Virus record (IMG/VR): IMGVR_UViG_3300048827_000008
Location: 1-32,368 of that record
From: a virus
DNA length: 32,368 nt
Reading direction: 5' to 3' (one strand)
The notes beneath the pieces are model-generated. The model saw nothing but the letters and a program-made list of their open reading frames with translations, searched no databases and was not told where the DNA came from. Positions 1,673-28,706 of this stretch are shown in pieces. Both the position numbers and the translations under genes were made by a program. Position 1 is the first letter of the stretch; each line of letters starts with the position of its first letter.

Positions 1673-1778
1673 CGACTACGGACCTGATAGTGACGCCGCG
1701 TGCTGTTTGCATGGTGTCCCGTGGTGTGAAGAGTGCGAGCTGTGCAACGAAGCGGAAGATGAGGAGGAGGGGTTATGA
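1650..1778 (+). pseudogene. orphan 3' frame encoding an acidic, Cys-rich segment
   Basis: The 42-codon frame reads IGDYYDDDDYGPDSD, then CCLHGVPWCEECELCNEAEDEEE, with a dense set of possible zinc ligands (two adjacent Cys, His, then CxxCxxxC). It ends in a TGA that overlaps the ATG of the nuclease gene as ATGA, exactly like other joints in this operon. This is strong evidence that the frame is coding, yet the only possible local start is ATT 1650. The simplest reading is the second half of the gene at 1466, displaced by one base. Confidence 0.45.
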
Positions 1779-2620
1779 GTGAGCTTAATGGCTTCTACTA
1801 CGGCATGGACTTCGAGACGTATCAGGCTGTGCCTGCGCTCAACGGTTCGTCCCTGATTCACCTGCGCCGCTCTCCAATGCGCTACAAATTTGAGCTGGAG
1901 AATCCGACTCCTCCTTCGCCAGCCATGATTCTCGGCACCGCAACACACCGCCTGATCCTTGAGCCTGAGCGGGTGGGCGACTTCGCGGTGTGGGGCGAGC
2001 GCGAGGAGGAGAAGGTTCGCCGTGGCAGCGTGTGGGAAGAGTTTAAGGCTGCGAACGCGGGCAAGATGATTGTAACCAAGGCCGAACGCGATCAGATGGT
2101 AGGCATGGCCGTGGGTGCGCGAAGGAACGTGCCCATCATGAAGTACGCGAACGCCAAAGGGAAAACTGAAGTCAGTATGTTCTGGCGCGATCCGGTGAGC
2201 GGCCGCAGGTTCAAGGGGCGCGTGGACAAGATTCTCGATAGCGGCCATGTGATCTTTGACCTCAAGACTACGCGCGACTGTCACCCGCGCCGATTCGGAG
2301 GGCAGTCTTACGCGCTGGGCTACCACATCAAAATGGCGCTCTATGGAAGCGGGTACGCGGCCATCGCGGGAGAGCAGCCCAAAATGCACTTGGGCGCGAT
2401 TGATTCTAAGGCTCCCCACGAGAGCGCGGTCTACCGCGTGACCAAGGACGTGATCCTGCAAGGGCTTGAGGAGTTGGATGAGCTGCTGCGCTTGCTGGGC
2501 GAGTGCGAGAAGACGGACAACTGGCCTCCGGCGTATGAGACCGAGACGGACCTGATGATTCCCGCGTGGGCGTTGACAGAGCAGGACAGTTTGGAAGAGT
2601 TTGCGGAAGTGGAGGAATAG
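1775..2620 (+). CDS. PD-(D/E)XK exonuclease, RecE / exonuclease VIII-like
   Basis: 281 residues, matching the PDDEXK-like family (DUF3799) that includes the C-terminal nuclease part of RecE. Visible family marks are SSLIHLRRSPMRYKF near residues 25-39, GTATHRLILEPE (54-65, with H58), an acidic E132 in TEVSMFW, FKGRVD (147-151), the core FDLKTT (161-166, D162 and K164), and a following YALGYHIKMALY helix. Such enzymes digest one strand of duplex DNA to expose single strands for annealing, usually with a partner annealing protein and in the cytoplasm. No RecT or Beta homologue is visible here; the 2929-3567 product is the nearest candidate partner. The start follows GAGGAGGAGGGG and overlaps the preceding frame as ATGA. 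Confidence 0.8.
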   Translation: MSELNGFYYGMDFETYQAVPALNGSSLIHLRRSPMRYKFELENPTPPSPAMILGTATHRLILEPERVGDFAVWGEREEEKVRRGSVWEEFKAANAGKMIVTKAERDQMVGMAVGARRNVPIMKYANAKGKTEVSMFWRDPVSGRRFKGRVDKILDSGHVIFDLKTTRDCHPRRFGGQSYALGYHIKMALYGSGYAAIAGEQPKMHLGAIDSKAPHESAVYRVTKDVILQGLEELDELLRLLGECEKTDNWPPAYETETDLMIPAWALTEQDSLEEFAEVEE

Positions 2621-10844: not shown

Positions 10845-13364
10845 CTAAAAACAATGCGCTGTAATCGTCGTTTCGTTTATTCCAAGCAGCCCAAAAACGA
10901 TGCTGCCATTGTGCGCCCCCGTTGGCGTTGTAACTATGCCTACCGCCCCATTTGCGACGCAGTAACCCTGATTTAATGCAGTTGGAAACGTGATTGTGCA
11001 AGATGTTGCCCCGGCTGTAATTCCGGTAACTTGAAAAGCGTTTTTGTTCCCAGTTACAACGCCGCTGTTACAAGCAGATGAATAAGGGGAACTTGTGCTT
11101 GAAATAGAGTAGCTGTAAAAGTTCGAATCGCCTCCCCCCGATAGTCCGCCGCCAAGCTCAACATTCCAAGTTGAAGAGTTAATGCATAACACGCTTTGAC
11201 TAGAATTGGATCGTGTGAAGTTTGTCGTGCAAGCGCCATTCGTTCCAGGCGTGATCGTTCCTCCCGGCCAGTTCAAGACTCCCGTGAGAGTCCCCCCACC
11301 AATAGGAAGATACGGTAGACCTCCAGATGTCGCACCTTGACTGCAAGCTCCTCCAGCGGGACAAAACCAAAGGTCTGAGGGGATTGAGCCGCTAATTTGT
11401 GAAGCTCCTAAGCTGGCAGAGTTGCCTTGTACAGTGAACCCTAAAGCTGTAGTTGACCCAAAATCAATTACTTTTTGATTGGTGTAGCTTGGGGCGTAAT
11501 AGATGCTGTTCCCCACAAATACTCCACCAAAACTTCCGTTCTCCCCATTCTTATAGAGCGTCGTTCCAGGCGTCAATGTTGCCATTACACTCATCACTAG
11601 GCCCGAAGGATGAAGCGTAAACCACGCCCCCGTTGCGCCGGGAGTAGCCGAATCACCCACCCATGTTCCATTTCCAATCACGAGATTAGCTTGGACATTT
11701 CCTGTGGTATACGTGATGGCGCACGGATTGCCATTTTGAAGAGCCTCAAATGTTACATGGTCGAAAGTCCATGACGTACCGGGATCAAGCACCCCGCAAG
11801 TTGTCAGCGCATTAAATGTTGTGTTTGCTACCTTTACCACGTTACTGTAACTGCCGGAGACATACCCGGTAATTCCATATCCCGCGCTTTGAAGCACCAT
11901 ATCGCTAATTGTGTCGTCAGCAGTTGCATTCAGCGAGATAAGAGCAGAAGCGCCGTACTGTCCGTTACCTTCAATAGCTCCTTTTTCCAGCAATAGATTC
12001 TGGCTCCCATCTCCGTTGATAAGCACACCAGTAAAAGACGCGTTATTGTAAGTGATCGCAAGTCCCTCACTCTTAAATCCGAGGGTTGTTCCTAGATTTA
12101 AGAAGGGTGCAGTTATGCCCGTATAGCGCAGTTCTGAAGTAATTTGGCCCTTTCCACCTTGGCCCTTGAAAATAATATCGCTCCTGCCTGACAGATTTAT
12201 CTGCGTGGGGGTTGCACACACTCCAGAAGGAAATACAATCTCCCCGCCTGCTGAGGGAAGTGCCGCGATAGCTGCGGCAATAGCGGCAGCATCATTTGTG
12301 CCCCCACAAAGTAACGAGACAACTTGGGGGCTCGCGACGGTGCCTGGGAACGTGCTTACCTGAGAACTTGTGCCGAGCGTACCGGTCTGCGTTACGCCTG
12401 TGATGTTCAGGTTCGCCCCGGCTGCGGTGGTCGCGCCCGTGCCGCCCGACGCCGGAAGCAATGGCGATCCAAGCGTCTCACTGCCAGCCACGACATTGCC
12501 TGAGAACGATGCGCTAGTGCCGGTGAGTGCGCCGGTCAGCGTTCCGCCAGTGAGGGGAAGTTTCGTCGGGTCTGTGGCAGTTCCCGCACTAGTCGCATAG
12601 GTGGCTGTGGCCGCGTTGCCTGTGGTGTTGGCTGCGTTGTTTGGTATGTCGCCGGAAAGCAGTGTGGGCAACTGCGCGTGAGGCAATGTGCCAGTGGTCA
12701 AGTCTGAAGCGGAAACTGTGACGTTGCTGCTTAATGCGTGGCCGTTAACCGTTGTTGCGGTTGAGACCGCGCCAAGGTTCACCAGCGCCCCGGCTGCGGT
12801 GGTCGCGCCTGTGCAGCCGTTGGGGATCAAATTACCAAGTGTGCAACCCGCCCCAGCCGTTCCCGCCGGAAGATCGGCAAGGACTAAAGCTCTAAATAAT
12901 GGAGACTGAGAAGTACCACCAGGGGGTCCAGCATAGACGACGTTGGCAGGTTCGGGTCCATACAGTGTCGCACTTTGCTCTTGATCGATCTCCGTCAGCT
13001 TGTCCAGGCCATTCTCGAAACTCTTCATCGGGACCGGCATGTTGTCCGTGAAAACGCTAGCTTGAGTCACGGGCGTAGTGCGTTCAATCATCAGAGTCCC
13101 AGATGCGCAGGCTGTGTTGAGAGTTACTGATCCTCCATTGGATGGGTTGTTATTCACGGCCACTACGGAATAAGTTGAGGGCGACAACACAGTGCCCGCC
13201 TGAGTTACGGTGATCGCTGTCGCAGCGGAGTAAGAAAATGGGATCGGGTAGGGGCCCACGCTGCCACTGCAAGTGTAGGACACGCTAGTACTCTGCGTCG
13301 TAACCGTAGCGCGTGCCCACGCGCTCGCCAGAATCAAGACCATCAGTAGAAAGATTCTCTTCAT
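10845..13364 (-). CDS. tail spike/fibre with T7 gp17-like anchor and a signal peptide
   Basis: 839 residues from ATG 13364, after GGTGAGGGAT; a GTG nine bases upstream lies within that site. Residues 1-19 form a Sec signal peptide (MKRIFLLMVLILASAWARA). Residues 25-131 match the tail-fibre N-terminal domain of T7 gp17 (VGPYPIPFSYSAATAITV, SPSTYSVV, GTLMIERTTPVTQ, NGLDKLTEIDQEQ), which attaches fibres to the tail. A low-complexity shaft (132-340) contains two copies of TGATTAAGA. A pectate-lyase-like beta-helix follows (about 349-650, starting NDAAAIAAAIAALPSAGGEIVFPSG). The Cys-containing C-terminal domain begins near 690. Role: receptor binding and perhaps polysaccharide degradation. The signal peptide on a virion fibre is highly unusual. 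Confidence 0.8.
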   Translation of the reverse strand: MKRIFLLMVLILASAWARATVTTQSTSVSYTCSGSVGPYPIPFSYSAATAITVTQAGTVLSPSTYSVVAVNNNPSNGGSVTLNTACASGTLMIERTTPVTQASVFTDNMPVPMKSFENGLDKLTEIDQEQSATLYGPEPANVVYAGPPGGTSQSPLFRALVLADLPAGTAGAGCTLGNLIPNGCTGATTAAGALVNLGAVSTATTVNGHALSSNVTVSASDLTTGTLPHAQLPTLLSGDIPNNAANTTGNAATATYATSAGTATDPTKLPLTGGTLTGALTGTSASFSGNVVAGSETLGSPLLPASGGTGATTAAGANLNITGVTQTGTLGTSSQVSTFPGTVASPQVVSLLCGGTNDAAAIAAAIAALPSAGGEIVFPSGVCATPTQINLSGRSDIIFKGQGGKGQITSELRYTGITAPFLNLGTTLGFKSEGLAITYNNASFTGVLINGDGSQNLLLEKGAIEGNGQYGASALISLNATADDTISDMVLQSAGYGITGYVSGSYSNVVKVANTTFNALTTCGVLDPGTSWTFDHVTFEALQNGNPCAITYTTGNVQANLVIGNGTWVGDSATPGATGAWFTLHPSGLVMSVMATLTPGTTLYKNGENGSFGGVFVGNSIYYAPSYTNQKVIDFGSTTALGFTVQGNSASLGASQISGSIPSDLWFCPAGGACSQGATSGGLPYLPIGGGTLTGVLNWPGGTITPGTNGACTTNFTRSNSSQSVLCINSSTWNVELGGGLSGGGDSNFYSYSISSTSSPYSSACNSGVVTGNKNAFQVTGITAGATSCTITFPTALNQGYCVANGAVGIVTTPTGAHNGSIVFGLLGINETTITAHCF
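12415..12437. repeat. 23-bp direct repeat, copy 1 (copy 2 at 12787-12809)
   Basis: An identical 23-base stretch occurs at 12415-12437 and 12787-12809, 372 bases apart, inside the spike shaft. Both copies encode the TGATTAAGA motif, followed by similar residues. It could allow recombination that shortens or lengthens the shaft. Confidence 0.7.
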
Positions 13365-14590: not shown

Positions 14591-15115
14591 TTAAAGTGTC
14601 GCTCTGAAGATCAGGTCAAGCGTGATTTGCGCGCTATGCACGGTATTCACTGTGATGGCAACCGTTAGCGCACTGCGAACGGGTGGATACACCGGATATG
14701 GAGCAGTCGCGCTAGTGATCGGAGTCAACTGCGCGGCGCTGGCGCTACCGTTGGTGGTCAGCAATCCCAAGTCCATAGCAAAGCCCCGCGTGTCTGTGAT
14801 GGTGATCGTGTAGCTTCCCGTGGGCTGAGTCGTACCAGGAGTGCGCCCGACTTGATACAAATAGTACCCCGTCAGGTTGTAGGCATTCAGATAGGCCGTT
14901 GGGGATGATCCGGTCAGAGGCACAACCGTAGACGGGAAACTGCCGTCTGCCGAATCGCCGACACAGGTCAGAGTGACGATCACCACTCCAGCATCGGGCA
15001 CACGATTCGATATGTTCTGTGTGCTGGTGACATCGGTAACGTTGCAGGTTCCAACAGCCCACGCCGGCAGAGCCATGCCAAATGCCAGTAGAACTGCGAG
15101 TAATCGATTCCTCAT
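14591..15115 (-). CDS. exported beta-sandwich phage protein
   Basis: 174 residues from ATG 15115, after GAGGAGAATCC; the upstream in-frame start at 15133 lies before this site. The signal peptide is MRNRLLAVLLAFGMALPAWA. The mature part (ADGSFPSTVVPLTG, YYLYQVGRTPGTTQPTGSYTI, ITDTRGFAMDL, ALTVAITVNTVHSAQITLDLIF) follows the strand pattern of a structural protein common next to phage tail-fibre genes, in which 'DGSFPDT...GATAPTDNYDITLTD...LT..I.....S....V' is seen. Those relatives usually lack a signal peptide as far as I know. Two early Cys may pair in the periplasm. Confidence 0.65.
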   Translation of the reverse strand: MRNRLLAVLLAFGMALPAWAVGTCNVTDVTSTQNISNRVPDAGVVIVTLTCVGDSADGSFPSTVVPLTGSSPTAYLNAYNLTGYYLYQVGRTPGTTQPTGSYTITITDTRGFAMDLGLLTTNGSASAAQLTPITSATAPYPVYPPVRSALTVAITVNTVHSAQITLDLIFRATL

Positions 15116-15125
15116 AGGATTCTCC

Positions 15126-16385
15126 TCACTCAAACTTTACTCCAAAATCAGCCAACTGTTCCAGATTCTTCTTCAAAATGTCCGCGCTTCCAGTAAAAGC
15201 CTCAACCTGTGTTCCCTTGATCTGGTCGCTAATCTCTTGAACCTCCGCAACGCACTCATCGATGCTGTCTCCATAAGCGACAACTGCCGCGAAGATTGGG
15301 CCGGCCTGCTGAGGCATGATCCACAAACCATCGGGAAACTGCGTCGCGTACCGGAGCTTGATCTGGTCTCGGAATTTGTCGGGAAACTCCACGAGCAAAG
15401 GATGCTTATCAACCCACGCGCTTTGCACCAGAACTTCAAATCCATACTTTCCCCTGTATTCCGGCTCAACCAGCTTACCGTCCGCGCCTTCCCAGAGGAT
15501 CTCCGGCAGGTTCTTCATCATGTTCAATTCCAACTCGAAGACCGGCGAGCCGACTCTCATGGCCGGATCGCTCAGGTACATCTTATCTTTTCCGGTGCGA
15601 AACTCCATCGCAAAGAAGTTGCGATACTGATATTCCTTGAGTGCCGGACTCAGCTTTTCGTAGGCTTCCACGATCTTCTTTGGAAACTGAGCCCATTCTT
15701 TGACGACGCCAATATACCCCTGATCCTTCTGCTCATTGCCCAGCAAGCCCCGCGAGGGGTACTGGCCGTCAATGCAATAGGTGTCAATCGCCAGATCGAA
15801 CGTATCGGGAAGATTATCCTCGACAACGAATGTCCGGTAATCGGCTACTGGGCCAAACTCCGCCTCCAACTCGTCCAGATGGTTCTTTGATAGTTCGTAG
15901 CCCTCAACGCAGAATGTCTCCGTGTCCCCGCGCGTGCGGCTGATTTTGATCCACAGCTTTTCCTTATCGCGACTCTTGATATATTTGCGCAGCGCCGTCA
16001 TGCCCGTGACCACTTCGTAAGGCGGCTGGAGTATGTCCAGCGTCTTGAAATACTCGCGCGCCTCCTCACGATAGAGTTCCAATTCATCTCCGTTGCGCGA
16101 TCCCCAGACTCTCTTTCCCTGCGCTGTGAGATATTCCTGCAATGGCCCCTGGTGCGATTCCGGAAACATGAACAGATCTACATCATCGATGATGCCCCAA
16201 ATATCGTCCACGCGCTCAAAGGTTGGGAATCCCTCGCCTAGTTCGGTGTGGTAGGAAGTCGGATAGTCCGCCACCCACGGCGACGTGTAGTAGACCTTAC
16301 CGAAGGACTCACTCAGTTTCTCGGCAAGAGCCGTATATACCCCGTTATCTACTACCGCGACACTCTTTGTAGAGTAGTCAGTCAT
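15126..16385 (-). CDS. ATP-grasp enzyme, PurD-like
   Basis: 419 residues. The start has GAGGTGGGAC upstream. The N-terminal 100 residues look like a Rossmann-type pre-ATP-grasp domain (KSVAVVDNGVYTALAEKLSESFGKVYY, VDLFMFPESHQG, GKRVWGSRNGDELELYRE). The ATP-grasp core follows: LWIKISRTRGDTETF (144-158, a likely ATP-contacting Lys region), and LSDPAMRVGSPVFELEL (271-287), which resembles the metal/phosphate-binding E/D-x-N/M-R-x-G-x-P-E segment of PurD and related ligases. Such enzymes form amide bonds using ATP through an acyl phosphate. The substrate is unknown; cell-wall, peptide or virion modification are guesses. Its place between ejection proteins and fibres suggests a late role. Confidence 0.7.
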   Translation of the reverse strand: MTDYSTKSVAVVDNGVYTALAEKLSESFGKVYYTSPWVADYPTSYHTELGEGFPTFERVDDIWGIIDDVDLFMFPESHQGPLQEYLTAQGKRVWGSRNGDELELYREEAREYFKTLDILQPPYEVVTGMTALRKYIKSRDKEKLWIKISRTRGDTETFCVEGYELSKNHLDELEAEFGPVADYRTFVVEDNLPDTFDLAIDTYCIDGQYPSRGLLGNEQKDQGYIGVVKEWAQFPKKIVEAYEKLSPALKEYQYRNFFAMEFRTGKDKMYLSDPAMRVGSPVFELELNMMKNLPEILWEGADGKLVEPEYRGKYGFEVLVQSAWVDKHPLLVEFPDKFRDQIKLRYATQFPDGLWIMPQQAGPIFAAVVAYGDSIDECVAEVQEISDQIKGTQVEAFTGSADILKKNLEQLADFGVKFE

Positions 16386-16482
16386 TGCAGTGTCCCACCT
16401 CTTCCGGAGGCCACTCCTCGTCCACCAGCCCCAAGTCCCATAAGGGCCAGAGATTGTCGATCTTGCGCCTACGAATGCACAT
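16378..16482 (-). CDS. small ORF, 34 aa, between ejection protein and ATP-grasp genes
   Basis: ATG 16482 lies two bases after the stop of the gp16-like gene, and the stop overlaps the ATP-grasp start by 8 bases, so the ORF fills the gap almost exactly. The product is MCIRRRKIDNLWPLWDLGLV followed by an acidic tail (DEEWPPEEVGHCND). The upstream binding site is weak (AGAGACGG). No family is recognised; translational coupling is the main support. Confidence 0.4.
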   Translation of the reverse strand: MCIRRRKIDNLWPLWDLGLVDEEWPPEEVGHCND

Positions 16483-16484
16483 AA

Positions 16485-19400
16485 TCACCGTCTCTGCCCT
16501 GGCAGTCGCATCCCACTGTTTCCTCTGCCCACGCCGGGAAGATGGAAGCCGCCGCCTCTACCTGCTCCGGGAAGTACTCCCTTCCCCGCGTTGCCTGTTT
16601 TTATGCCTTCACGGATAACCTGCGAACCCATAGCGTCTCCAGCCAATTCCAACAGGTCTTTGTAGGAGTATTCTTTGTTAGGGTCTTTCAGGGCGTTCTC
16701 CACCGTCTCCACCGCGCTTACTGCTGAAATCGGGGCCAACCTTTCAGCAGCGTATTCACTCTGATCTGCGAGCTTTTTACCGAAGCTATCTGCCTTCTTG
16801 TAGATAGGCTTGCCGCCGTACTCCACATTCATTGCCATGTGCCCAACGGTTCCGATCACTGGCGCTGCCTTGTTGACTACAAACTCCGCCGTACCCGCTA
16901 CTGGCGTGTCACTCATTGATTTCTTTACCCACGTCATAGCATCCTTGGGCGCACCGGCAAAGAACAGATTGACGTACATTTCCTTACCGTCCTTGTCCTT
17001 TCCTAGATAGACCTGATCGATATGTCTAATGTCGGTCGGATCATACTTCCCGCCAATCGCTAGACTCATTCCAGCAGTCATGGCAAAGCCAGTAGCAAAA
17101 GACTTGACAAAGAACATACGGGCGGCGGAGCCTGCCGGTCCACCTTGAAATGCGTACTTTGCGTTTAGGATATTGCTGAAAGTCCAGTCCGGGGCCAAAA
17201 GGAACATGCGGTACATATCCCTCATACTCTTGCTCACACCCATCACATCCCAGTTCAGACCACCGTAGGCCGCGTTCATTTCCTTGGCGATGCTGCGCAT
17301 TGCCGACCCGTATTCCTGATTGGTCGCTTCGGGATGCTTCGCAACCCAAGCCGCCTCCTGTGCCGACATATCCGTAACCTTGAACTTGCGTTGAATCACG
17401 TCGAATGTGGTTTTCGTTATGTACTTTGCGAATCCATCAACCTGCTTGATTATGGGGAGATTGGTGAGTCTTCCAAATCCAGTAGGGATATCAGACGGGT
17501 TCATCCCCTTGTAGGCTTCGTATTCGGGACCAGTCTTTGTTGTAGTAAGCCCGTAAAGAGCGTGATGCCTTTCCTGCGCCTCAAAATCTGGCGATGAATT
17601 GTCTGAGTGCATCGCTCTCACATAGCCGTCCACGCTCATGTTGTTCATGGCGGTAATGCCCATGGTCTTGATGTGGAAGAGGGAAAGGCCAAGCTCGATT
17701 GCTTTGGTGACTTGCTGCACATGCAGAAACTTTGCGACTGCGGAAGGTTTTCCTCCACGCTCAAGCAATGGCGCCAGCGCATCGGAAACGACCTTCGGTA
17801 CGTAAAGGCCGCCTGAACCGCGAAGTGTTTCCCAACCCTCGGGATGGCTGTCTTCGGTTCCCTCTACACCCAAAGCGGTATTCCTCAACTCTGTCGTGAA
17901 TAATTTAGTAGAAACCGCTATCGCATGTCGGTCCCCATAGATGGCGAGTTCGTCAAAAGCGTTGAATGTACGCGCCTCAAAGTCTCCAGATTTCAACGGA
18001 TCAAGAAGGTTTAGATACTCTCTCTGAATTGCATGAGGGGTTTTCTCTGTAAATTTTGATCCGCCAAAACCCTTCGCGCCCTTGTCCATAGCCTTCACGA
18101 ACATTCGCGGGCTGTACCGCGCAGGGTCAATGCTACTATCCATTATTCCCAACTGACGTGCTCTATCAAGCGCTTTCGTGAAATACTCGGTAAGCATCTT
18201 GTCGGCGGCCATCATTTCAGGAGTAGGTTCCAAGGCCCTCTCCATCGATGGGATGTACTGCTTGAGGTTTTCATTCGATCCCGCTTTGATCTCCGGGATC
18301 GACGAGCGAAGAGCATCGGGATTTTTGCGGTAATCGCGCATGAAGCTAATTGCCCGTTGATGCACAACGTCGGGTTCGAGTTTTCTCAGCCGGCCAACAA
18401 GCTGCGCAGCCTCAGTGACGAACATATTGTGCGGCCCGACAAGAAGAGTCCTCAATGCAGACTCGCCATAGTCGGCACCCTTTAGACCAGCCTTTATTCC
18501 GTTCAACGTAGCCCTTCCTCCAGCAAAGAACCTTGCGAGTTCCTGTTCCATTGAATCGAAATCCGCTGCGCCCTCCGCCACATTGCGGCCGGCAACCCTC
18601 TCTCGTGCCTGTCCGTAGTCCTCGGCGTGAAGCTCTTCCTTGTCGCCTCCGGCAATATCGCTCCACATCTTATAAACTTCCGGCTCGTTTTCCTTGACCC
18701 ACCGCTTCGCCGCGTTGCGGTCGAGAAACTTGCCATCTGGCGTAACAAAGCCCCGCCCAGACTTCATCTCGCCGCGGTTGTAGAGTTGGTCGATGGTCTG
18801 CGGACCGCGTTGCTGGGCCTCAGCCGTGATGGGCTCTCCGGACTCTATCGCCTCTTTCTTGAGCGTCCTAGCCCGGTCAATGACCGCCTGCTCGTGAATC
18901 TCCGGATTCTGCAATACCTTGTCCGCGAGCTTAGGATCGGCCTCCAACTCGGCCATCTCAACCGGCTTTTGGGACAAAACTCGCGAAGCGAGGTCTGAAT
19001 GGCTTTCATTCTCATCGGCTTCGGCAAAAGACTCACCGAAGTTAATAGCAGACTTGAGTCCGGGCGCAGGATCAGGCTTGACGGGGGGTTGCGCGGCGAG
19101 CTTGTCGGCAGACTCCTGGGGTGTCGTTCCATCCTTGGCGTACACATCCATGAGGGCTTGCTTAGACTCTCCCTTTCCTAGCATCAACCCGCCGGTCGCA
19201 AGATTAAGGGGAACCACCATCAAAGCGGAATCCTCGAAGTCCCGGAGGCGAGGCATGCGCTGATCGAGCAAAGAACCCGCTAAGGTCATTGCGCTGGCCT
19301 GATACATGCCCTTCATGGCGATGCTTGCCAGGGGCTTCTCAGCAATCATTCCCGGCACCGGAATGTCGCCTGCAACGCTGAATGCTTCGGCTCCGAGTGC

Positions 19401-19973
19401 TCCCTTTGTTGCGGACCACAACGCATCGCCTGCTCGATCCGCCAATTCTCCGAAGCTCTTTGTATCCCCCTCTTCGTAATTCTCCATCATCCACTTGCGC
19501 AATCCCGCATCCAAAGCTGAACCACCGACGAAACCAGCAATGGCCGCTCCGGGTACAGCAATATCCGCTAGCGCGCCTACAACTATCGGAACCATAACAA
19601 CGGGATCAGTAGCAAAACTAACCAAGTTGTGAACGCCGCGCTCAAACACATTGGAGGATTCAAAAGGATCGGCCTCTTTCCCGCGTATGAGCATCCCCAA
19701 TGGCGTCTCTTCAAAACCCGTCTCCGCTGCATAGGCAAATCCCTTGTCATAATCCGCATCGCGATTACGCAACTGATCCTCGATCTCATCATGGTTCTGA
19801 TAAGCGTATCCTGGCGTCACTCCAATCATCCGTGCGTGGACAGAGGCTTTCCACGCAGCTCCGGAGTCTTCCGGCGTCATCTGCGGAGCGTTCATCGCAG
19901 ACGGGGACGCTTCCGTAGGCTGTTGCCACGGAGCTTGCTCTGCGCTCGGTCTATCCCACGGCGCGGCGCTCAT
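16485..19973 (-). CDS. large ejection (internal virion) protein, gp16-like
   Basis: 1162 residues from ATG 19973, which overlaps the previous stop as ATGA and is preceded by GGGAGAAG; an in-frame ATG at 19988 lies in the site itself. By position and size it corresponds to T7 gp16, which enters the host envelope during DNA ejection. A hydrophobic stretch at about 111-155 (VMVPIVVGALADIAVPGAAIAGFVGG) and another near the C-terminus (FATGFAMTAGMSLAIGG) may insert in membranes. Residues near 405-455 (GFVTPDGKFLDRNAAKRW, then ELHAEDY) form a small domain I recognise from large phage polyproteins. No lytic transglycosylase motif is visible, unlike T7 gp16. The C-terminus is Gly/Arg-rich. Confidence 0.7.
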   Translation of the reverse strand: MSAAPWDRPSAEQAPWQQPTEASPSAMNAPQMTPEDSGAAWKASVHARMIGVTPGYAYQNHDEIEDQLRNRDADYDKGFAYAAETGFEETPLGMLIRGKEADPFESSNVFERGVHNLVSFATDPVVMVPIVVGALADIAVPGAAIAGFVGGSALDAGLRKWMMENYEEGDTKSFGELADRAGDALWSATKGALGAEAFSVAGDIPVPGMIAEKPLASIAMKGMYQASAMTLAGSLLDQRMPRLRDFEDSALMVVPLNLATGGLMLGKGESKQALMDVYAKDGTTPQESADKLAAQPPVKPDPAPGLKSAINFGESFAEADENESHSDLASRVLSQKPVEMAELEADPKLADKVLQNPEIHEQAVIDRARTLKKEAIESGEPITAEAQQRGPQTIDQLYNRGEMKSGRGFVTPDGKFLDRNAAKRWVKENEPEVYKMWSDIAGGDKEELHAEDYGQARERVAGRNVAEGAADFDSMEQELARFFAGGRATLNGIKAGLKGADYGESALRTLLVGPHNMFVTEAAQLVGRLRKLEPDVVHQRAISFMRDYRKNPDALRSSIPEIKAGSNENLKQYIPSMERALEPTPEMMAADKMLTEYFTKALDRARQLGIMDSSIDPARYSPRMFVKAMDKGAKGFGGSKFTEKTPHAIQREYLNLLDPLKSGDFEARTFNAFDELAIYGDRHAIAVSTKLFTTELRNTALGVEGTEDSHPEGWETLRGSGGLYVPKVVSDALAPLLERGGKPSAVAKFLHVQQVTKAIELGLSLFHIKTMGITAMNNMSVDGYVRAMHSDNSSPDFEAQERHHALYGLTTTKTGPEYEAYKGMNPSDIPTGFGRLTNLPIIKQVDGFAKYITKTTFDVIQRKFKVTDMSAQEAAWVAKHPEATNQEYGSAMRSIAKEMNAAYGGLNWDVMGVSKSMRDMYRMFLLAPDWTFSNILNAKYAFQGGPAGSAARMFFVKSFATGFAMTAGMSLAIGGKYDPTDIRHIDQVYLGKDKDGKEMYVNLFFAGAPKDAMTWVKKSMSDTPVAGTAEFVVNKAAPVIGTVGHMAMNVEYGGKPIYKKADSFGKKLADQSEYAAERLAPISAVSAVETVENALKDPNKEYSYKDLLELAGDAMGSQVIREGIKTGNAGKGVLPGAGRGGGFHLPGVGRGNSGMRLPGQRR

Positions 19974-22186
19974 GGCTGCTTCTCCCAATTCTTCTGGTCG
20001 TACTGATCCCCGCCCTTGAATTTCCAGTCCGCATTGTCGTAGTGTTTAACGGTTCCAACGGGGGGCGCATTGGCTTTTGAAGCGGAGGGCAAGGTCGTAT
20101 CTGTGGTTCCACTTGGAGGATTTGCGCTAGGGTATCGCGGAGTATATTGCCCCCCCGTAGCGCCGGATTTTATTCCCTCCCAGATGTAAGCTGGTAATTG
20201 ACTCAATGAAGGCGTTGGAAGAACGCCAAATCTCTGATCTAGAAGGTCTGAAATCTGCTTTTGAATCTTCGGCCCCAGAACTTTCTGCGCGATTACCGCC
20301 TTATCCTTTGATGGGTTTGCGTTGACCTGCTGCTCCCATGCTTTAAAGGTTTCCGCGTATTTCTCCGACAACCGATCAGCCTCTTCTCGTGTTGCTGTTT
20401 TCGGAATAGCGAAGGCGTTCGTGAGTATAGACATTCCGGTCTGGTAGTCCTTGTTCGTCTTGGCTTCATTGATCGTGCTGATTACCTGCGCCTGATCTCT
20501 GCTCGTCATTCCTGTAGTGGTACGGACGGTCACTGGGTCAAGAATCTTTCCGGAGGCAATGTCCATGAGAAAATTGCCCGCGATCTGATCGCTTTTTTGC
20601 TGTCTTTCTTGCATCGCTATTTGGCGTCCCTGTATACGCATCTGTTTATTGTAGCGATCATTTTCATCCCACTTACTTAGGAGATAACTTCTACCGTGTG
20701 CGTTTATTTCGGAGTCTGGAATCTGGAATATCTGGGCGCGCGAAAGTTTATCAAGGTTTGGTTCGTACTTGTCAATAGCCCGTGTATTTTTGTCAGCCTG
20801 ATTGTGCTCGGATAAGGTTCTCAGACGTTCCTCATCTTCAATCAATTTCTCCGCCATCACTCGATCCGGATTACCCTTTTCGTCCACTAAATTGTGTTGT
20901 TGCAGCCATTGTCCGTCTTTAAGGACATTGCTGCGAGCTTCCCAATTCTCGGTCCCGTCTGGGTTCTTAAATTCCGGCGCACCGAGAGCGGCATCCTTGA
21001 TGTTGAGCGCACCGTTAAAGTTTTGCGACTCAGCTTGCTCATTCAAGTGCTTGTCCATGTCAATCGCATGGTCACGCAGGATGTTCACTTCAGCGGGAGT
21101 TATGTTGATCAGGTTCAACGGTCCAGTTGCGCTATGTTGTCCGAATCTTCCATACTTTCCAGCCTCCGCATCTTCGTGATACTTCTGACCAAAGGCGTCC
21201 GCATCAGCAATTCTCTGCTTTTCGTCTCCTGCAAACTTGGCCATAAACTGCCCGGTGTCCTTATAGTGCTGCCACGCCTCATCTTCGGTATGGAGTTTCC
21301 CATCGTAGATTGTCGGAAAGAGAACTTCCACCCCATCCTCATCACGGCTGGCAGAATAGACGGTTCCAGTAGTACCTTTCTTAATCGAACCCGTATCAAC
21401 CTCTGGACGGTTGTACCATTGAAAATTTTTACCAAGTTCCACGAGAGTGGAATATCCAGATGTAGACGGTGGGGCTCCCTGAGTACCACCTCCCAACTGC
21501 GCAATGGCCTGCTGTCTCTCCATTGGATTGGCGCTGGTAATCGCAGCTTCATTGATTTGTTTCTGTGTCGCCTCCTGAAATGCGTCCATGTTGAGTTGCT
21601 TTTCGGCGGTGGTCATCAGGCCATTCTTGACCGCATCATCGTACAGACCTTCAACGTGGGAATGAATCTGTTGCTCTTGCGCCACAGCGCCGCTGCGGTG
21701 CGCTGCTACGAGTTGCGGGAGAAGCGTCTTAATCTGGATAGCGGTGTTTGCGTCGTTTTCCTGCCCCAGCAAAGTCAGTTGCCTCGCCTGTCCCAGCGTG
21801 TCCATGCTCGGCTTCAAGCCCTGAGCGGACATCTGGATTTCTATCGCGGCGGGAGACTTTCCGAAGTCCTTGACAACCTGATTCAGTTTTCCATTCGGGC
21901 CCGTGTACTGGTCTAGAACGTCTTTTACCTGTCCGGAGTTGGTTGTTTTCTTGAGTTCGATTTGCAACTCGTCGTCGAGCGCCTTCATGTGGTTCTGCGC
22001 AGCGATCTCATCGACATGCTTCTGCGCTTCCCGGATGTGCGCTTCGAGATCAAGTCCCGTGTCCGCAATGTCTCCAGAGGTGTCCGCCAACTGAGCAATA
22101 TCCTGCCCAGGCTTGCCCGCCTGACGGGGATTTATGTATGGCTTATCGACGGATTGAAGATCGGGCACACCGGGAATCTGCGGCAT
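19970..22186 (-). CDS. internal virion protein, gp15-like, with an inserted small domain
   Basis: 738 residues, overlapping the previous stop as TAATG. It is long, mostly helical and hydrophilic, and sits between gp14-like and gp16-like genes, so it should be the second ejection protein that forms the periplasmic conduit. Residues about 250-345 form a distinct module (NFQWYNRPEVDTGSIKKGT, DEDGVEVLFPTIYDGKLHTEDEAWQHYKDTG, ADAFGQKYHED) that I recognise as a small domain present in many unrelated phage proteins, function unknown. No catalytic motif is seen. The C-terminal tail is Lys/Trp-rich (HYDNADWKFKGGDQYDQKNWEK). Confidence 0.65.
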   Translation of the reverse strand: MPQIPGVPDLQSVDKPYINPRQAGKPGQDIAQLADTSGDIADTGLDLEAHIREAQKHVDEIAAQNHMKALDDELQIELKKTTNSGQVKDVLDQYTGPNGKLNQVVKDFGKSPAAIEIQMSAQGLKPSMDTLGQARQLTLLGQENDANTAIQIKTLLPQLVAAHRSGAVAQEQQIHSHVEGLYDDAVKNGLMTTAEKQLNMDAFQEATQKQINEAAITSANPMERQQAIAQLGGGTQGAPPSTSGYSTLVELGKNFQWYNRPEVDTGSIKKGTTGTVYSASRDEDGVEVLFPTIYDGKLHTEDEAWQHYKDTGQFMAKFAGDEKQRIADADAFGQKYHEDAEAGKYGRFGQHSATGPLNLINITPAEVNILRDHAIDMDKHLNEQAESQNFNGALNIKDAALGAPEFKNPDGTENWEARSNVLKDGQWLQQHNLVDEKGNPDRVMAEKLIEDEERLRTLSEHNQADKNTRAIDKYEPNLDKLSRAQIFQIPDSEINAHGRSYLLSKWDENDRYNKQMRIQGRQIAMQERQQKSDQIAGNFLMDIASGKILDPVTVRTTTGMTSRDQAQVISTINEAKTNKDYQTGMSILTNAFAIPKTATREEADRLSEKYAETFKAWEQQVNANPSKDKAVIAQKVLGPKIQKQISDLLDQRFGVLPTPSLSQLPAYIWEGIKSGATGGQYTPRYPSANPPSGTTDTTLPSASKANAPPVGTVKHYDNADWKFKGGDQYDQKNWEKQP

Positions 22187-22659
22187 TACCAGTCACCCCC
22201 TCCGCCGGCAGGTAACGGTGTCGGAGCTTTCGCACCGTAGTAGGCGGTCGATGCCTTCGTGAGGCCACTCAGGAATGAACCGATTCCGCTCATTGTTCCC
22301 GAGAACGCCGCAATCTTCCCGTAGTAGCGTTGCATCGCAGCCTCTTCAGTCCCAGCCTCTTCGATCTGTACGCTTTCCTTGGCTCCGCGCGCCACCGTTG
22401 CTGCCATGATGAGTAGCGGCGACCCTGAAGCAATGTCCACGCCAGCGGCGGCATACCGGCCTGCCTGAGTGCCAACTAAGGAAGAAAACTTTTGCTGATT
22501 CGCTTCCACTTGATCCCGCATATTCTCAAGCGTGATGTCGGCGTTGTAGTCGTCGGCTGCCTTCTGTTTCTGGCCGGACTCATATCCCCCGAATCCGCTC
22601 ATCACTGAAGAGAGAACACCCACCCCAAAGTTGGCTCCCGATATGGATTGCGGCGTCAT
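22186..22659 (-). CDS. internal virion protein, gp14-like
   Basis: 157 residues; the start overlaps the previous stop as ATGA. A Gly-rich hydrophobic N-terminus (SISGANFGVGVLSSVMSGFGGYESGQ) precedes a helical middle (ITLENMRDQVEANQQKFSSLVGTQAGRYAAAGVDIASGSPL) typical of the small ejection protein of T7-like phages, which inserts into the outer membrane. 'GRYAAAGVDI.SGSPL' is a common signature of this group. The second half has another Gly/Ser-rich hydrophobic region. Confidence 0.75.
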   Translation of the reverse strand: MTPQSISGANFGVGVLSSVMSGFGGYESGQKQKAADDYNADITLENMRDQVEANQQKFSSLVGTQAGRYAAAGVDIASGSPLLIMAATVARGAKESVQIEEAGTEEAAMQRYYGKIAAFSGTMSGIGSFLSGLTKASTAYYGAKAPTPLPAGGGGDW

Positions 22660-23094: not shown

Positions 23095-26000
23095 TCAATC
23101 CTGATTCGCGGAATCGCGCCAAACCAGACCTCGCAAAGTGAACGGCAGGGGATCGCTCTGGGTCACATAAAACGTCGATTCGTCGCTCCAGTCGTCGTCC
23201 ATATCGCGCGTCAATTCAAGTGTACTCATTGCCGGAGGTTGCAACATTGTTCCCGGCCCGTAAGTGATGTCGTACATGTGGGCAGGATCGGTCCCGTACT
23301 CCCCCCCCATCGACTGATACACACTCAGCGTAACCCGATTGAGCTTTTGCTTCATACCCCGCGTCGTAGATCCCTGCGCGGACATCACAGGATTTGTCGG
23401 TCGAATCGTTATCTGGTAGGGAATCCCGATGGTGATGAGGTTGGAGAAGTAGGGAAACACTACCGTATCCGAGGTCACTATCGTCGGCTGAAGAATCACT
23501 GCACCGTCGCCCACCGCCACAACCTGTTGACCGAGAAGGTAGCTCATCCCAGTCACCTGATTGGTCACCTCCCGGACCGTTCCACCGCCCGTATAGACGC
23601 CAAACAAAGTTGAGTCCATTCCAACCAACTGGAATTCGTTTAGAACTGCATTGACCACCGTGTAGGCTTGAGTCGCATCCTGATTGATTTGCGTCATGCC
23701 TTCTACGCCCGATATCTGCACCGTCATTCCGTCTGTAAAACTGTGACCGGGAGCCTGGACCTCAACAGGAGTTCCATTGTTGATTCCCGTGATGGCCACA
23801 GGTGGCAATCCTTGCCACTGCTGACCACAGTTCACAAAGAAGGCATTCGAGAGTTGACCGAACAATTCTTGCGGCATGAAGTATTCGACGTACCGCATTG
23901 TCACGCCATTGATGGTCCGGTTGACGACAACGGAGATTTGATCCTCTATATTCGCTCCGCTGATGACCGCAACAGATTCAATGCTTCCCCCTTGGGTTTG
24001 CATATTTATGCGGAACCACGCATACACCTGATCCTGCGTGTTAAAGACAAGTCCGATCATTTGCCCATCATTGCGCACGGCCCAGAAAATCGGATAAGGC
24101 TCCGCCTGAAACGCGGTCTGTGCGATGCCGGATTGAGCCGAGGACGGACCTAGAGTTATGTTGCGGTTGAGGCGTGTCAGGTCGAAGTTGTCCCACTGGT
24201 TAGACACGAAGTTGAAGACCAAGAATGTCACGATTCTGGTGGACCGAGAGACGAAAATTGCTGATCCATTCACCAGTTGCGGCTGCAAGGGACTGACCCC
24301 GAGGTTGCTTTGCAGGGCCGCATTTACATTGGTTTGGCTCAGGGACGATCCGTTCGATCCCTCCACAACCCACACGCCTCCAGCACTGCCGATCAATAGA
24401 GCGTTGGGGGTTCCAATCATGCTGAGGAGTTGGTTTAGTTTGTTCGCAACCAAGGTGTATTGGAAAGCGTAATCGTCTTCGTTGGGATCGCAGATGAAAT
24501 CGTAGTAATCATCTTGAACACTGCCATTGATCTGCACGGGATTGTTGTCGCTTCCTCCGATGGTCAAGCGCTCTTGGTAGAGAGTTCCGCAAGCTGGATA
24601 GTCTCCCGCCGCTGCGAAGAATGGAAAGACCGCGACTGCAAATCCACCGCTCACATAGGCTAAGTATCCGGTGGTATCGACTAGATTCCCGGTGTTGGCG
24701 TCAAGAAGGTCGAAAGAGCAAGTCCCGTCGCCATTGTTCACAAAACTATCGACGTAAAATTCCCCTTGATTAAGTTCGACCATCCCGCCGATGAGATTCA
24801 TGTAGATTCGCTGATTGTTGCTAAAAACTGTAGTGGTCGCCGCAATCGTAACGACACCAGGGTTTGCCTTCGTGATCCCGGTGATCGACTGTCCGAGGCC
24901 GTTGTATCCGGTCTTCACAACGTCCAAAGTTCCGCGATATGTGGAACCATTGCCTAATGTTCCGGGGAGCGCTGGTGCATACTGCCATGAATTAGCGGCG
25001 AGTCTTTTAATCTGCGCCGGCGGATAGTTGGGATGGAAGACCCACAACACGTCCGCGCTTTGCGTTGAGCAATCGAGAGCGAATAGGTCGGCCTCGGCAT
25101 ACGGCGTGGTTAGCTCAATCGGCGGTTCCGCGAGGCTGGTTCCGTCTTCCCAAAACGCCGAGTTCCACGACAGTCCTGTCGCTCCAAAAACTAGAGGGAA
25201 TTCATCGAATTGGTTGTTTGCGGTACATTCTGCTATCCAGTTTTGCGTGTTCCATCCCAGGGGGGCGTAGACAAGAGAAGGTACTGCGATCCACGGAGCC
25301 GCATAATAAAGAGCATTCGGAGTTACCGTCCAACCCGATAAAAGAACCTGGTTGCTCGTCGAAGCATTCAGTTCCGATAAAGCTCTAATTGCAGTCTCAA
25401 TCAGGTTTGCAGCGTTGTTCGCTGCCGTTGTTTTAGCCAGCGCGATATTGATGCCTTGGTTTGGCGAACTCCCGGTAATCGTGACGCTAAGAACATCAGA
25501 AGTATTGGTCGTGAAAGTAATTGGAACTGTCTGAGCATTAGCCGTTCCGTAGGGCGCCGCGATGTAGAGTCCCTTGCGGTTTGGAGTCTGCCCTATGAAA
25601 GCAAAGAATGGACCCACCAGTGACAGGTTTGCAGCGACATACGCAGTCGCCGGATCATAGTTGAGGGCAGTGGGAAGAGTGACCGCCAGCCCCAAAGACC
25701 ATGATCCTTCGCTCGCCCCTTCCCAGATACGGATAAGTCCCGCTGAGAGTTCGAGGATCGCCCCCTGAATTGTCGAAAACTGGAACGGGACGAGACGACT
25801 TTTTCCGCTCGAACCCGTCATCATGCTCTCGCTTGCGATAGTCTGCGAGTTGTTTACTATGTAGGTTCCCGTATAGCCAAGCCCCGAACCCAGAGCAGTG
25901 ATGACGGTTCCCGCGGCGATGCCTGTTCCGTAGAGCGTCTGCCCAACACGGAGGCTCCCCTGCGCTACGGCTGTCACGGTGAGGGTCGTAGTGGCGATTG

Positions 26001-26214
26001 ATCCGGTGAACATAGAACCGCCGCGGGCGGAAACCCCAGCGAAGTAGGTTCCGGGCATCTTCTTGGCACCGCCCTCGACGAGCGGTACGGCGTTTTCTAA
26101 AATTTTGCAGGCAGAATTATACTTGGCGATGTCATCTCGGAAGTCTACGAGAGGACTGCACTCCCCGGTGTTAAATGATTGACGTACAACGGCTAGCTTT
26201 CCACCACTAGGCAT
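23095..26214 (-). CDS. tail nozzle protein, gp12-like, with inserted domain
   Basis: 1039 residues; the start follows GGAGAGTCT. The opening ([51 protein letters not shown]) is the typical start of phage tail-tube/nozzle proteins of the T7 gp12 type, where SPL...R.D...Y..G......N..P...G...RRPGT is conserved. Residues 70-133 form a foreign-looking beta module. The chain then resumes with [29 protein letters not shown], as in family members. Near residues 815-890 ([36 protein letters not shown]) lies a domain often annotated in phages as FCCH-like. The protein forms the tail end through which DNA leaves. Confidence 0.8.
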
Positions 26215-26247: not shown

Positions 26248-26994
26248 CTACCAGCGGAAATAGCGGCCGGCGTCTACCCAGGATGTGCTCCCGGCTTCGT
26301 CTTCGCTGAAATCGAGGCATTCGTTCTGGGCCTCGGCAGAATTCAAGCTGTCTTTGTACATCTGCTGCATCAGTTCAAACTTCGATTTGTCCTCCGTGAC
26401 GCCGATCGACAACTCCATCGCCAATCGATTACAGAGGCAGTTCACGAATCCTGGCATCAGTTGTGTGTAATCGGAGATCAGTCGGATGTAGTTAATCATC
26501 GCCGGACCCCGGAAACCCATGTAATCCGTGAGCGCGTACCTCCCCGCAGGAAAGGGCAAGGAATACGGTGTCGGCGGGCATGTGATCGGCGACGACCAGC
26601 CAGCGGTAAGAGTCTCGATGACGTAAGGAGTGTCGTAGGGCCAGAACGGAGGATCTTCCCGCCTATACCATCCTTCGCCCTCTGGACCCCAGAGCCAGGC
26701 GAAGTGGTGTCTGTCCCTGGGGCGCTTGTGCGGGCGCACGAATCGGAGGAGGTCAGAGGGTAGAGCCCATGCAGCCTTGTAGGAATAGAGGGGGATGACT
26801 GGGCTTAGCTCAAGCTGGACTCGAGTCTTGGCGAATTTCCAGTCGCGCTCCGCCATTACCTCTCCAAACACGAAATCCCAAACCGCGAGACACTTAACGG
26901 CATTGGGGGAATTCTCGTTGACATTTGTAATTTGCCCACGAGCTCCTATTCTCCCCAGTGCAACATTACATATGCTGGTTTGTGAATAATTCAC
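26248..26994 (-). CDS. tail adaptor protein, gp11-like
   Basis: 248 residues from GTG 26994, after GGAGGAAGC. The protein starts MNYSQTSICNVALGRIGARGQI and continues NENSPNAVKCLAVWDFVFGEVMAERDWKFAKTRVQL, the usual layout of the tail tubular protein A family (T7 gp11), which joins portal and nozzle. A longer middle segment rich in Pro/Trp (RPRDRHHFAWLWGPEGEGW, PPFWPYDTPYV) departs from the shortest family members. The C-terminal helix (NRLAMELSIGVTEDKSKFELMQQMY) is also typical. The start overlaps the 3' end of the HNH gene by 29 bases. Confidence 0.85.
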   Translation of the reverse strand: MNYSQTSICNVALGRIGARGQITNVNENSPNAVKCLAVWDFVFGEVMAERDWKFAKTRVQLELSPVIPLYSYKAAWALPSDLLRFVRPHKRPRDRHHFAWLWGPEGEGWYRREDPPFWPYDTPYVIETLTAGWSSPITCPPTPYSLPFPAGRYALTDYMGFRGPAMINYIRLISDYTQLMPGFVNCLCNRLAMELSIGVTEDKSKFELMQQMYKDSLNSAEAQNECLDFSEDEAGSTSWVDAGRYFRW

Positions 26995-27487
26995 GCTTCC
27001 TCCGTCGCATCTGGTGAAGGCTTATGAACTGGCAGTTCATGCAAAGGATACGGAATCCGGAAGGGAATCCTTCTCTCTTTAGCCACTGGTAGAAATTTAG
27101 TCCCGCGTTGAGCCTGATACTTTTTCTATGTGCGTTTCCTCCTCCATCAATGTGATCCACACTTAAACATGGAATCCTGTCCTCGTTGCACAACGCACAC
27201 TTCATCGTACCGTGGCTATACTTTTCTACCACTAACGTCTTCAGTTTAACCTTGTGCCGCCGAGAATTCTCTTCAACACGAGACTTCTTGACTGGATCAG
27301 CACGATTGGCCCGATCTCTAACTCGGGCTTTTTCGCGAAGTTCCTCAAGATGTTTTTCTTTATAGGTTTGGATGTAACCGAGAAATCTTTCGCGGACTTC
27401 AGGACGCTTTCTATACTCTCGCTGATAGTCTCTCGCGTATGCCCTAGCAGCATCTTTCTGGGATTCAGATTTATCGCCGTAGTTCAA
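26966..27487 (-). CDS. HNH homing-type endonuclease
   Basis: 173 residues, starting at TTG 27487 after GGGGGCAGG; no in-frame ATG occurs until residue 95. The basic N-terminal 90 residues (YARDYQREYRKRPEVRERF) probably bind DNA. The HNH core is complete: CALC (97-100), SVDHIDGGGNAHR (D111, H112, H120), NFYQWLKREGFPSGFRILCMNCQ (C149, C152). These selfish or recombination-promoting nucleases cut DNA and are common between structural genes. Overlap of its 3' end with the tail adaptor gene suggests insertion into an existing operon. Confidence 0.85.
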   Translation of the reverse strand: MNYGDKSESQKDAARAYARDYQREYRKRPEVRERFLGYIQTYKEKHLEELREKARVRDRANRADPVKKSRVEENSRRHKVKLKTLVVEKYSHGTMKCALCNEDRIPCLSVDHIDGGGNAHRKSIRLNAGLNFYQWLKREGFPSGFRILCMNCQFISLHQMRRRKRELFTNQHM

Positions 27488-27495
27488 CCTGCCCC

Positions 27496-27951
27496 CTACG
27501 CCGGGACAGTTGCAGTCTCGGCAGTATTCCTGTGACTCTTGTTGTGGACTCTAATGGCGTACAGGTTCGGAAGAACCTCACCGCATGTTTTGCAGGTGAA
27601 TGTCTTGCCCTTCTTCTTCCCCCGTTTTTCGATCACAACCGACTCGTCAGAAACCACTTCCTCGACGGCCTCAGTCTTGTGAACAGACCTCTTGTGAACA
27701 GACCGGGTGTGAGTTCCAAGATCATTCAGAGATTCGAAAGGCTTCTGGCATTGCTTGCAGATGAAACCGCCGGGAGCGGGACTAACTCCAGTTCCGGTCA
27801 TCGTTCGGTCGAACTCGAAAACGTAAATATTCCCGATCTTCATAACAGCAAGAGTACCGTCGTGCTCGATCTCATAAGTCTCGCCGGGATAGAACGAGAA
27901 ACACTTCGGACTATCCCATGCGAGAGAGATGCATTTGGCTTGCACCTTCAT
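27496..27951 (-). CDS. C2H2 zinc-finger protein
   Basis: 151 residues from ATG 27951, which overlaps the cement-protein stop as ATGA and follows GGTGGGGAAC; a longer reading from 27981 is rejected. Residues 1-50 look like a small beta domain ([27 protein letters not shown]). Two classical fingers follow: C65-x2-C68-x12-H81-x4-H86 and C120-x2-C123-x12-H136-x3-H140, joined by a charged linker with GKKKGK. C2H2 fingers bind DNA, RNA or protein; they are uncommon in phages. The position after the capsid genes says late expression. A 15-bp tandem repeat lies just after finger 1. Confidence 0.8.
27675..27704. repeat. perfect 15-bp tandem duplication
   Basis: TCTTGTGAACAGACC occurs twice without a gap (27675-27689 and 27690-27704). 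In the zinc-finger protein it adds one copy of RSVHK, giving three histidines spaced by five residues at the end of finger 1. Perfect identity suggests a recent slippage event. Confidence 0.8.
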
Positions 27952-28706
27952 TGTTCCCCACCTGTCTTGGGTCCAAACCATGAGGTCAGGTATCCCGTTG
28001 TCGCTGCGCCGCCGGCATTGGCCGCATACCAGCGCAGAAACTCCAGAATGGACGCTCCGTTGACGGGAATGAAGTAATGCGCTCCATTCACCCCCAACTG
28101 CGCCGCACTCAAGGTTCTCGCCGCGATGATGTTGGTTGCGGTGCCAATGAGTGCGCCCGTCGCCGATGACGTGAGAACAGAGAAGGCGATGCTGGTCGTC
28201 GCGGCCGTCAACATGGGCGCCGTGATGACCAGGTGAATCCCCATCTCAACCCCGCCATCCCCAACGACTTCAGGCGGGAAGGTGTAACCCTTCTCCGCGT
28301 AGGACGGGAACTGCGGAAGCCACGGGTAACTTGCCCCCGTATTCGGTGCCCCGAAGTCGAGTTCGTTGTTCGAGTACTGCGCGCTTCCCGTCAGAGCATC
28401 GCCTAGCGTGTTCGGTCCAAACGTCATGGCAGTGCCGCCGGAGACGGTTTGCGAGATGTTGACGATGTAGGTTGTGCCTCCACCAAGACCGATGCCGGTC
28501 CCGAGGGCGGTAATGAAGGTTCCGGCAGTGACTCCGGGACCATTCACACTCTGCCCAACCACGATCTGACCGGTGGTCAAGGTCGTGACAGTAAGGGTGG
28601 TTCCGGAGATGGCGCAACTGGAAGCTGCGTTGAGTGTCGAAGTGATCGGACCGGAGACGGAGGTTCCGGAGCCGTGCAACATTGCAACTGCATCTGTGAC
28701 TGGCAT
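27948..28706 (-). CDS. capsid cement/decoration protein, Bbp16-like, with inserted domain
   Basis: 252 residues; the start follows AAGGAGGGACAC. It lies directly after the major capsid gene, the place of the Bbp16 capsid cement protein of BPP-1-like phages. The C-terminal two thirds fit that family ([65 protein letters not shown]). Residues 31-95 ([49 protein letters not shown]) are a separate beta module that also occurs in the nozzle protein. The protein should stabilise the capsid from outside. Confidence 0.7.

Follow-up and report, generated by a model that had tools for sequence, protein, structure and literature searches.

A PurD-like ATP-grasp family, putatively of amide ligases, encoded among the virion genes of uncultured phages

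We analysed a virus record of 32.4 kb (hereafter, the window), whose structural module is T7-like and is read on the minus strand (Table 1). The genes follow in the order head-tail adaptor fragment (phrog_332), major head protein (phrog_212), tail protein (phrog_394), large tail protein (phrog_376) and internal virion protein (phrog_418), continuing with two long proteins at the positions of gp15 and gp16, an ATP-grasp gene and three genes for signal-peptide proteins. The ATP-grasp gene starts with an ATG at 16385 and encodes a product of 419 amino acids, P0001. The two long proteins are probably ejection proteins, judging from gene order and size, and neither of them matched a PHROG; the one at the gp16 position lies upstream of the ATP-grasp gene throughout the clade of the window. 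The original prediction placed the gene between ejection proteins and an exported cassette, which holds for the cassette of three signal-peptide proteins downstream and, more provisionally, for the ejection proteins. It also stated that no other purine genes lie nearby and, indeed, we found none among the window ORFs tested.

Table 1. Features of the window in and around the structural module.
Feature	Coordinates	Strand	Basis and remarks
Separate gene with tail fibre domain	27948..28706	-	Domain common with large tail protein
HNH endonuclease-like gene	26966..27487	-	phrog_2255, E 7e-7
Large tail protein	23095..26214	-	Tail fibre domain
Internal virion protein	22186..22659	-	phrog_418, E 1.2e-12
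738-aa protein at gp15 position	19970..22186	-	Cluster c13; probable role, without PHROG match
1167-aa protein at gp16 (ejection protein) position	16485..19988	-	Clusters c12/c18; probable role
34-aa peptide ORF, MCIRRRKIDNLWPLWDLGLVDEEWPPEEVGHCND	16378..16482	-	Stop overlaps ATP-grasp start; conserved small gene
PurD-like ATP-grasp ligase, putative (P0001)	15126..16385	-	Structure, conserved residues, dN/dS about 0.05
Exported protein	14591..15115	-	Signal peptide MRNRLLAVLLAFGMALPAWA; starts 10 bases past ATP-grasp stop
Exported protein, 351 aa	13526..14581	-	Signal peptide
Exported protein with tail-protein N-terminal domain	10845..13364	-	phrog_1640, E 6e-14; signal peptide
PD-(D/E)XK protein	1775..2620	+	PF12684; plus-strand block
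Restriction alleviation protein Lar	364..717	+	PF14354; plus-strand block

Within the structural module there is also an HNH endonuclease-like gene, and the large tail protein and a separate gene have a tail fibre domain in common (phrog_38233, phrog_21413); a block on the plus strand includes genes for a Lar and a PD-(D/E)XK protein. The 34-aa ORF preceding the ATP-grasp gene differs from its homologue in L012 at 4, 1 and 18 first, second and third codon positions, with 15 synonymous versus 4 nonsynonymous codons. A further homologue, in L299, has no ATP-grasp gene within the 10.8 kb read, which weakens the case for this peptide as an obligate substrate. The first of the exported proteins has homologues in L003, L006, L013, L014 and L016.

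P0001 gave nothing above cut-off with the Pfam, PHROGs, NCBIfam or PADLOC models, and neither the protein alone nor a profile of 7 members retrieved anything useful from Pfam, PHROGs, PADLOC or PDB sequences. Matches to cytochrome P450 reductase and cystatin covered a short stretch and disagreed with the structural model, and were dismissed as due to chance. The NCBIfam purD model (TIGR00877) produced a weak, colinear match (85-172 on 83-171; E 0.048), scoring 12.5 bits where the cut-off is 288. An AlphaFold (AF2) model, run on a 24-sequence alignment, reached a pLDDT of 92.0 and a pTM of 0.89; its top Foldseek matches were all PurD/GAR synthetase (E 8e-21), and VIA-align superposed it on PurD structures (PDB 2yw2, 3lp8, 2qk4) over nearly the whole chain, including the N-domain, with Z of 27.6-31.6 versus about 24 for PurT and PurK. 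The fold consists of two alpha/beta lobes plus a pre-ATP-grasp Rossmann-like N-domain, and length and domain order are those of PurD. The assignment of P0001 to the PurD fold is thus due to its structure, since sequence searches barely detect the likeness, and it confirms the presence on the minus strand of a full-length PurD-like ATP-grasp protein with its N-domain. The gene is under purifying selection, with dN/dS of 0.04-0.07 against close relatives in four pairs with estimable dS, which was saturated in all of them; this and the many relatives on other contigs mark it as a real gene.

The family of the window shows only 14–19% identity to PurD, and its profile aligned with one built from 22 PurD sequences, of E. 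coli and of bacterial MAGs, with a probability of 96.8 in global mode and 77 in local mode. A second family, also from phage genomes (L216, L222, L223; MW202796.1), bridges the two. It retains the PurD motifs GPNTG and RFG, scores 93 bits with purD, and hhalign relates it both to PurD (probability 99.3, E 3e-20) and to the window family (probability 98.6, E 7e-16). Because the bridging family matches both, there is good support for the presumed descent of the window family from a PurD-like ancestor. In the tree, the window family is set apart from cellular PurD by long branches and the bridging family forms a separate branch.

Eleven residues are invariant in the 102 full-length members: E103, K147, R152, D201, E218, K220, E261, D273, R277, P281 and N292. 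They include the ATP-binding Lys and two acidic metal ligands (K147, E261 and D273); K147 aligns with K145 of E. coli PurD, and D273 and R277 correspond to Glu and Arg in the PurD motif VIEFNCR, so that the ATP-side Lys and the Arg of the NxR motif are kept while Glu is changed to Asp. The role of E261 as metal ligand is presumed from the spacing in biotin carboxylase (E276/E288), and not taken from a ligand-bound structure. Other PurD signatures are lost. The metal-binding Asn of E-x-N-x-R (position 275) is Cys in 57 of the 102 sequences, Thr in 39, Ala in 3 and Met in 3, and never Asn; the N-terminal GxGGREHA motif (GNGGREHA) has gone, with VVDNGVYTALA in its place; and RFGDPE has become RxxSP (RVGSPV in P0001), in which R277 and P281 are retained and the Asp is mostly Ser. 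The ATP- and metal-binding residues are, therefore, mostly conserved, with this one Asn replaced. The family is a constrained enzyme with an altered active site and presumed catalytic activity, very probably an active ligase other than PurD. Nevertheless, because the metal-binding Asn is replaced throughout the family, catalysis is not certain.

Iterated scans of uncultured viral contigs yielded 34, then 37 and then the best 80 of 187 loci; with duplicates removed, the window family comprises at least 107 distinct contigs, including the window and contigs from MAGs. The near-identical relatives of the window are IMG/VR contigs. There were no matches among 50,697 phage records with four different family members as queries, nor among cultured phages and plasmids with several members, and a genome collection produced six matches, all to short MAG contigs. 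Among 396 genomes from the same phylum as the acidobacterial MAG G002, the only positive was the virus-like contig of G002 itself. As far as searched, the window family is confined to uncultured phages. The MAGs bearing it are assigned to Opitutaceae, Acidobacteria, Anaerolineae and a Methanoregulaceae bin, assignments that might hint at hosts, given that binning of viral contigs is unreliable. Three contigs with the decarboxylase/ATP-grasp pair described below (L254, L255 and L265) carry IMG identifiers resembling those of isolate genomes (2747843221, 2824350403 and 2511231028), and are possibly prophages in cultivable hosts.

A structural or packaging cluster, recognised or inferred, lies within six genes upstream or seven downstream of the ATP-grasp gene in 78 of the 107 contigs. 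Three arrangements recur. In the clade of the window and its sister group, the gene follows the gp16-position protein and precedes exported or tail proteins; in a second arrangement it stands between a probable portal and a probable scaffold and capsid, with roles deduced from order and appearance in proteins without PHROG match; and in one large clade it is flanked by terminase (phrog_38) and portal (phrog_156), and the major head protein (phrog_334) comes later. Because these arrangements differ, the ATP-grasp gene accompanies virion genes in general and no particular one of them. Its residence in phage structural modules, and not in purine operons, together with the lost PurD motifs, bears out the earlier view that it does not serve nucleotide synthesis. 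In three contigs with a structural module near the ATP-grasp gene (L024, L031 and L035), there are glycosyltransferase-like genes upstream of the probable portal (PF13704 in L031, E 1.4e-10; a second protein looks like GT9 by eye).

Signal-peptide genes, called with our own heuristic detector, are enriched at positions +1 to +3 from the ATP-grasp gene (35/152 versus 49/581 among farther codirectional genes; Fisher p 3e-6), mostly owing to the clade of the window and its sister group. Nearly all members of the window's clade have one to three consecutive signal-peptide genes after the ATP-grasp gene, including one for a tail-domain protein, as seen in the window. The original prediction regarded the exported and ejection proteins as possible substrates, and this found no support: only in the window's own clade are exported proteins the usual neighbours, and other clades place the gene at terminase and portal or at the probable portal and scaffold-capsid genes. 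We thus rejected the idea that exported proteins are the substrates as a rule for the whole family.

Two kinds of small protein were associated with the ATP-grasp gene, designated c1 and c3. One or the other is present in 63 of the 107 contigs, usually encoded directly upstream of the ATP-grasp gene; five contigs have both and 44 neither, and neither occurs anywhere in the 32 kb of the window. Profiles of all their members were too diverse for scanning the collections, and smaller alignments were used.

SpeD-family decarboxylases turn an amino acid or SAM into an amine, and c3 (about 125 aa; 35 of the 107 contigs, usually directly upstream) is a homologue of these enzymes. PF02675 was over its cut-off in 12 of 26 partner-bearing records, with E below 0.001 in 23 of the 26; one subgroup matched TIGR03330 with E 8.6e-14, and the best PDB match was the AdoMetDC 2iii, with a weak E of 0.036. 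The pyruvoyl-forming Ser (Ser63) and the active Cys (Cys83; T. maritima numbering) are invariant in 22 sequences, a likeness that extends to the phage SpeD/AdoMet decarboxylase homologues, several of which are demonstrated decarboxylases of ornithine or arginine (PMC9992855, PMC10407285). c3 differs from them in its coupling to the ATP-grasp gene, a term absent from the main text of both papers, and in usually having Asp for His68; His is retained in L091 and L095. This His is essential in T. maritima AdoMetDC (PMC10407285) and, with Asp there in most sequences, c3 is only a putative decarboxylase. Searching from the c3 side, we found an ATP-grasp gene within 4 kb in 44 of 46 loci, some of them on contigs that the first set contained as well; of the two exceptions, one is truncated at a contig edge. 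We found c3 neither in cultured phages nor elsewhere in the partner-less records, which are fragments. None of the 26 partner-bearing records contained a spermidine synthase, which was found in 11 of 14 control genomes; this absence fits an amine product that is used directly, and not for spermidine synthesis.

The other partner, c1 (about 125 aa; 33 contigs), has an HExxE motif and further invariant Asp, Glu and His residues (His96). Its model (pLDDT 96.7) shows a weak zincin-like resemblance, with a best Z of 5.3 (IrrE); the best-matching folds are the zincins IrrE, CapP, Spartan and selecase. The motif of zincin metallopeptidases is HExxH, where c1 has HExxE. From the c1 side, an ATP-grasp gene was found in 38 of 53 loci, three of them with the bridging family, in which the HExxE protein adjoins the ATP-grasp gene in L216, L222 and L223. 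In the clade of the window c1 comes and goes, being present in 4 of 13 members, and it occurs elsewhere in 2 of 37 partner-less records, which are fragments. In L131, L133, L134 and L137 c1 is downstream of the ATP-grasp gene and has a C-terminal extension, which in L131 matches the Erv1/Alr thiol oxidase (PF04777, E 1.5e-7).

The acyl phosphate that ATP-grasp enzymes form from a carboxylate is attacked by a nucleophile, an amine in PurD. We propose, with belief and doubt about evenly balanced, that the window family are late, ATP-dependent carboxylate-amine (amide-bond) ligases that derive from PurD, have lost its substrate sites and perform a phage-specific job. ATP and Mg2+ would bind between the two ATP-grasp lobes (Lys147, Glu261, Asp273, Arg277), a carboxylate would be activated as acyl phosphate, and attack by an amine would yield the amide. 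In about a third of the relatives this amine might come from the adjacent enzyme of the pyruvoyl-dependent SAM-decarboxylase family; in another third, processing of the substrate or the product may fall to the HExxE peptidase-like protein encoded alongside. The phage of the window, having neither partner, would use host metabolites, including a host amine; the absence of partners from the window and from 44 of the 107 contigs indicates that they are not required. Since the gene rides in a structural or packaging operon, the reaction would take place late in infection. The simplest joint reading of the ATP-grasp and decarboxylase genes is production of an amine followed by late amide ligation. 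The ligation foreseen in the original prediction, read as amide ligation, fits the decarboxylase and peptidase-like partners of the relatives; its choice of a virion, wall or surface component as target goes further than the data, with which a small-molecule product and a modified virion protein are equally compatible.

That the protein is a true PurD, carried as an auxiliary metabolic gene to boost purine synthesis, has in its favour the similar fold and length and the best Foldseek matches; we reject it, leaving it next to no probability, on its low score against TIGR00877, the lost motifs, the long branches of the tree and the lack of purine neighbours. Besides, 37 of the 40 genomes searched from the phylum of G002 encode a PurD themselves that scores over the cut-off. 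PurD joins glycine to phosphoribosylamine, and PurD ancestry would suit a hypermodification of DNA in which nucleotides receive an amino acid or an amine, but this is very unlikely because the GGREH motif of the PurD N-domain is lost, the gene is in a late module and the window ORFs searched yielded no recognisable nucleotide-modification gene.

A stronger contender, though still rather unlikely, is a soluble amine conjugate (e.g. aminoacyl-polyamine or aminoacyl-agmatine) made with no protein modification, which could act as a DNA counter-ion during packaging or re-route host polyamines. The kinship of c3 to SAM decarboxylase, the phage relatives that became ornithine or arginine decarboxylases, the lack of spermidine synthase in the 26 records and the terminase-portal location in one large clade are all in agreement with it, but the partner is missing from the window and many relatives, and the window's clade has ejection and tail genes as neighbours instead of packaging genes. 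Late modification of a host protein or cell-envelope component, for counter-defence, superinfection exclusion or lysis timing, is in keeping with the exported proteins adjoining the gene in the window's clade and has a parallel in jumbo phages, where peptide ligases from a different ATP-grasp family were suggested to act on host proteins (PMC7824862); these neighbours are, however, clade-specific and there was no PADLOC match, and we deem it improbable. Those R2K/CDC123 proteins of jumbo phages and the graspetide ligases resemble the window family in ATP-grasp chemistry, for which a role in modifying peptides or proteins has been proposed, and some of the window family's relatives have peptidase-like and small-peptide neighbours; they belong, according to literature descriptions, to other ATP-grasp families, whereas the window family has the full PurD architecture and a decarboxylase partner.

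Going beyond the amide ligase itself, we tentatively envisage a new late phage pathway, in which an amine from the decarboxylase and a substrate prepared by the peptidase-like protein would be joined by the PurD-derived enzyme into an amide on a virion protein, on a small phage peptide or in counter-ions of the packaged genome; this is possible, but doubtful. If true, tailed phages would carry a widespread system for post-translational or small-molecule conjugation in their structural operon. Fold and class of chemistry are familiar; what appears to be new is the family, together with its active-site signature and its partners, and our search, limited to the open-access literature, found no paper on the family or the gene pair. 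A large and strongly conserved family has been overlooked because it occurs in uncultured phages and no profile library recognises it. From its partners, a specific chemistry can be predicted, amine plus carboxylate, during the building of the virion. Enzymatic modification of virions or packaged contents is poorly known in phages, and a defined gene pair is now available with which to study it. In nine contigs in which c1 and c3 are absent (L057, L058, L061, L139, L141, L142, L144, L148 and L150), conserved and very acidic peptides of 37–48 aa (33–42% Asp/Glu; motif AETGRxGCLxP) are encoded just upstream of the ATP-grasp gene, and are possible candidate substrates.
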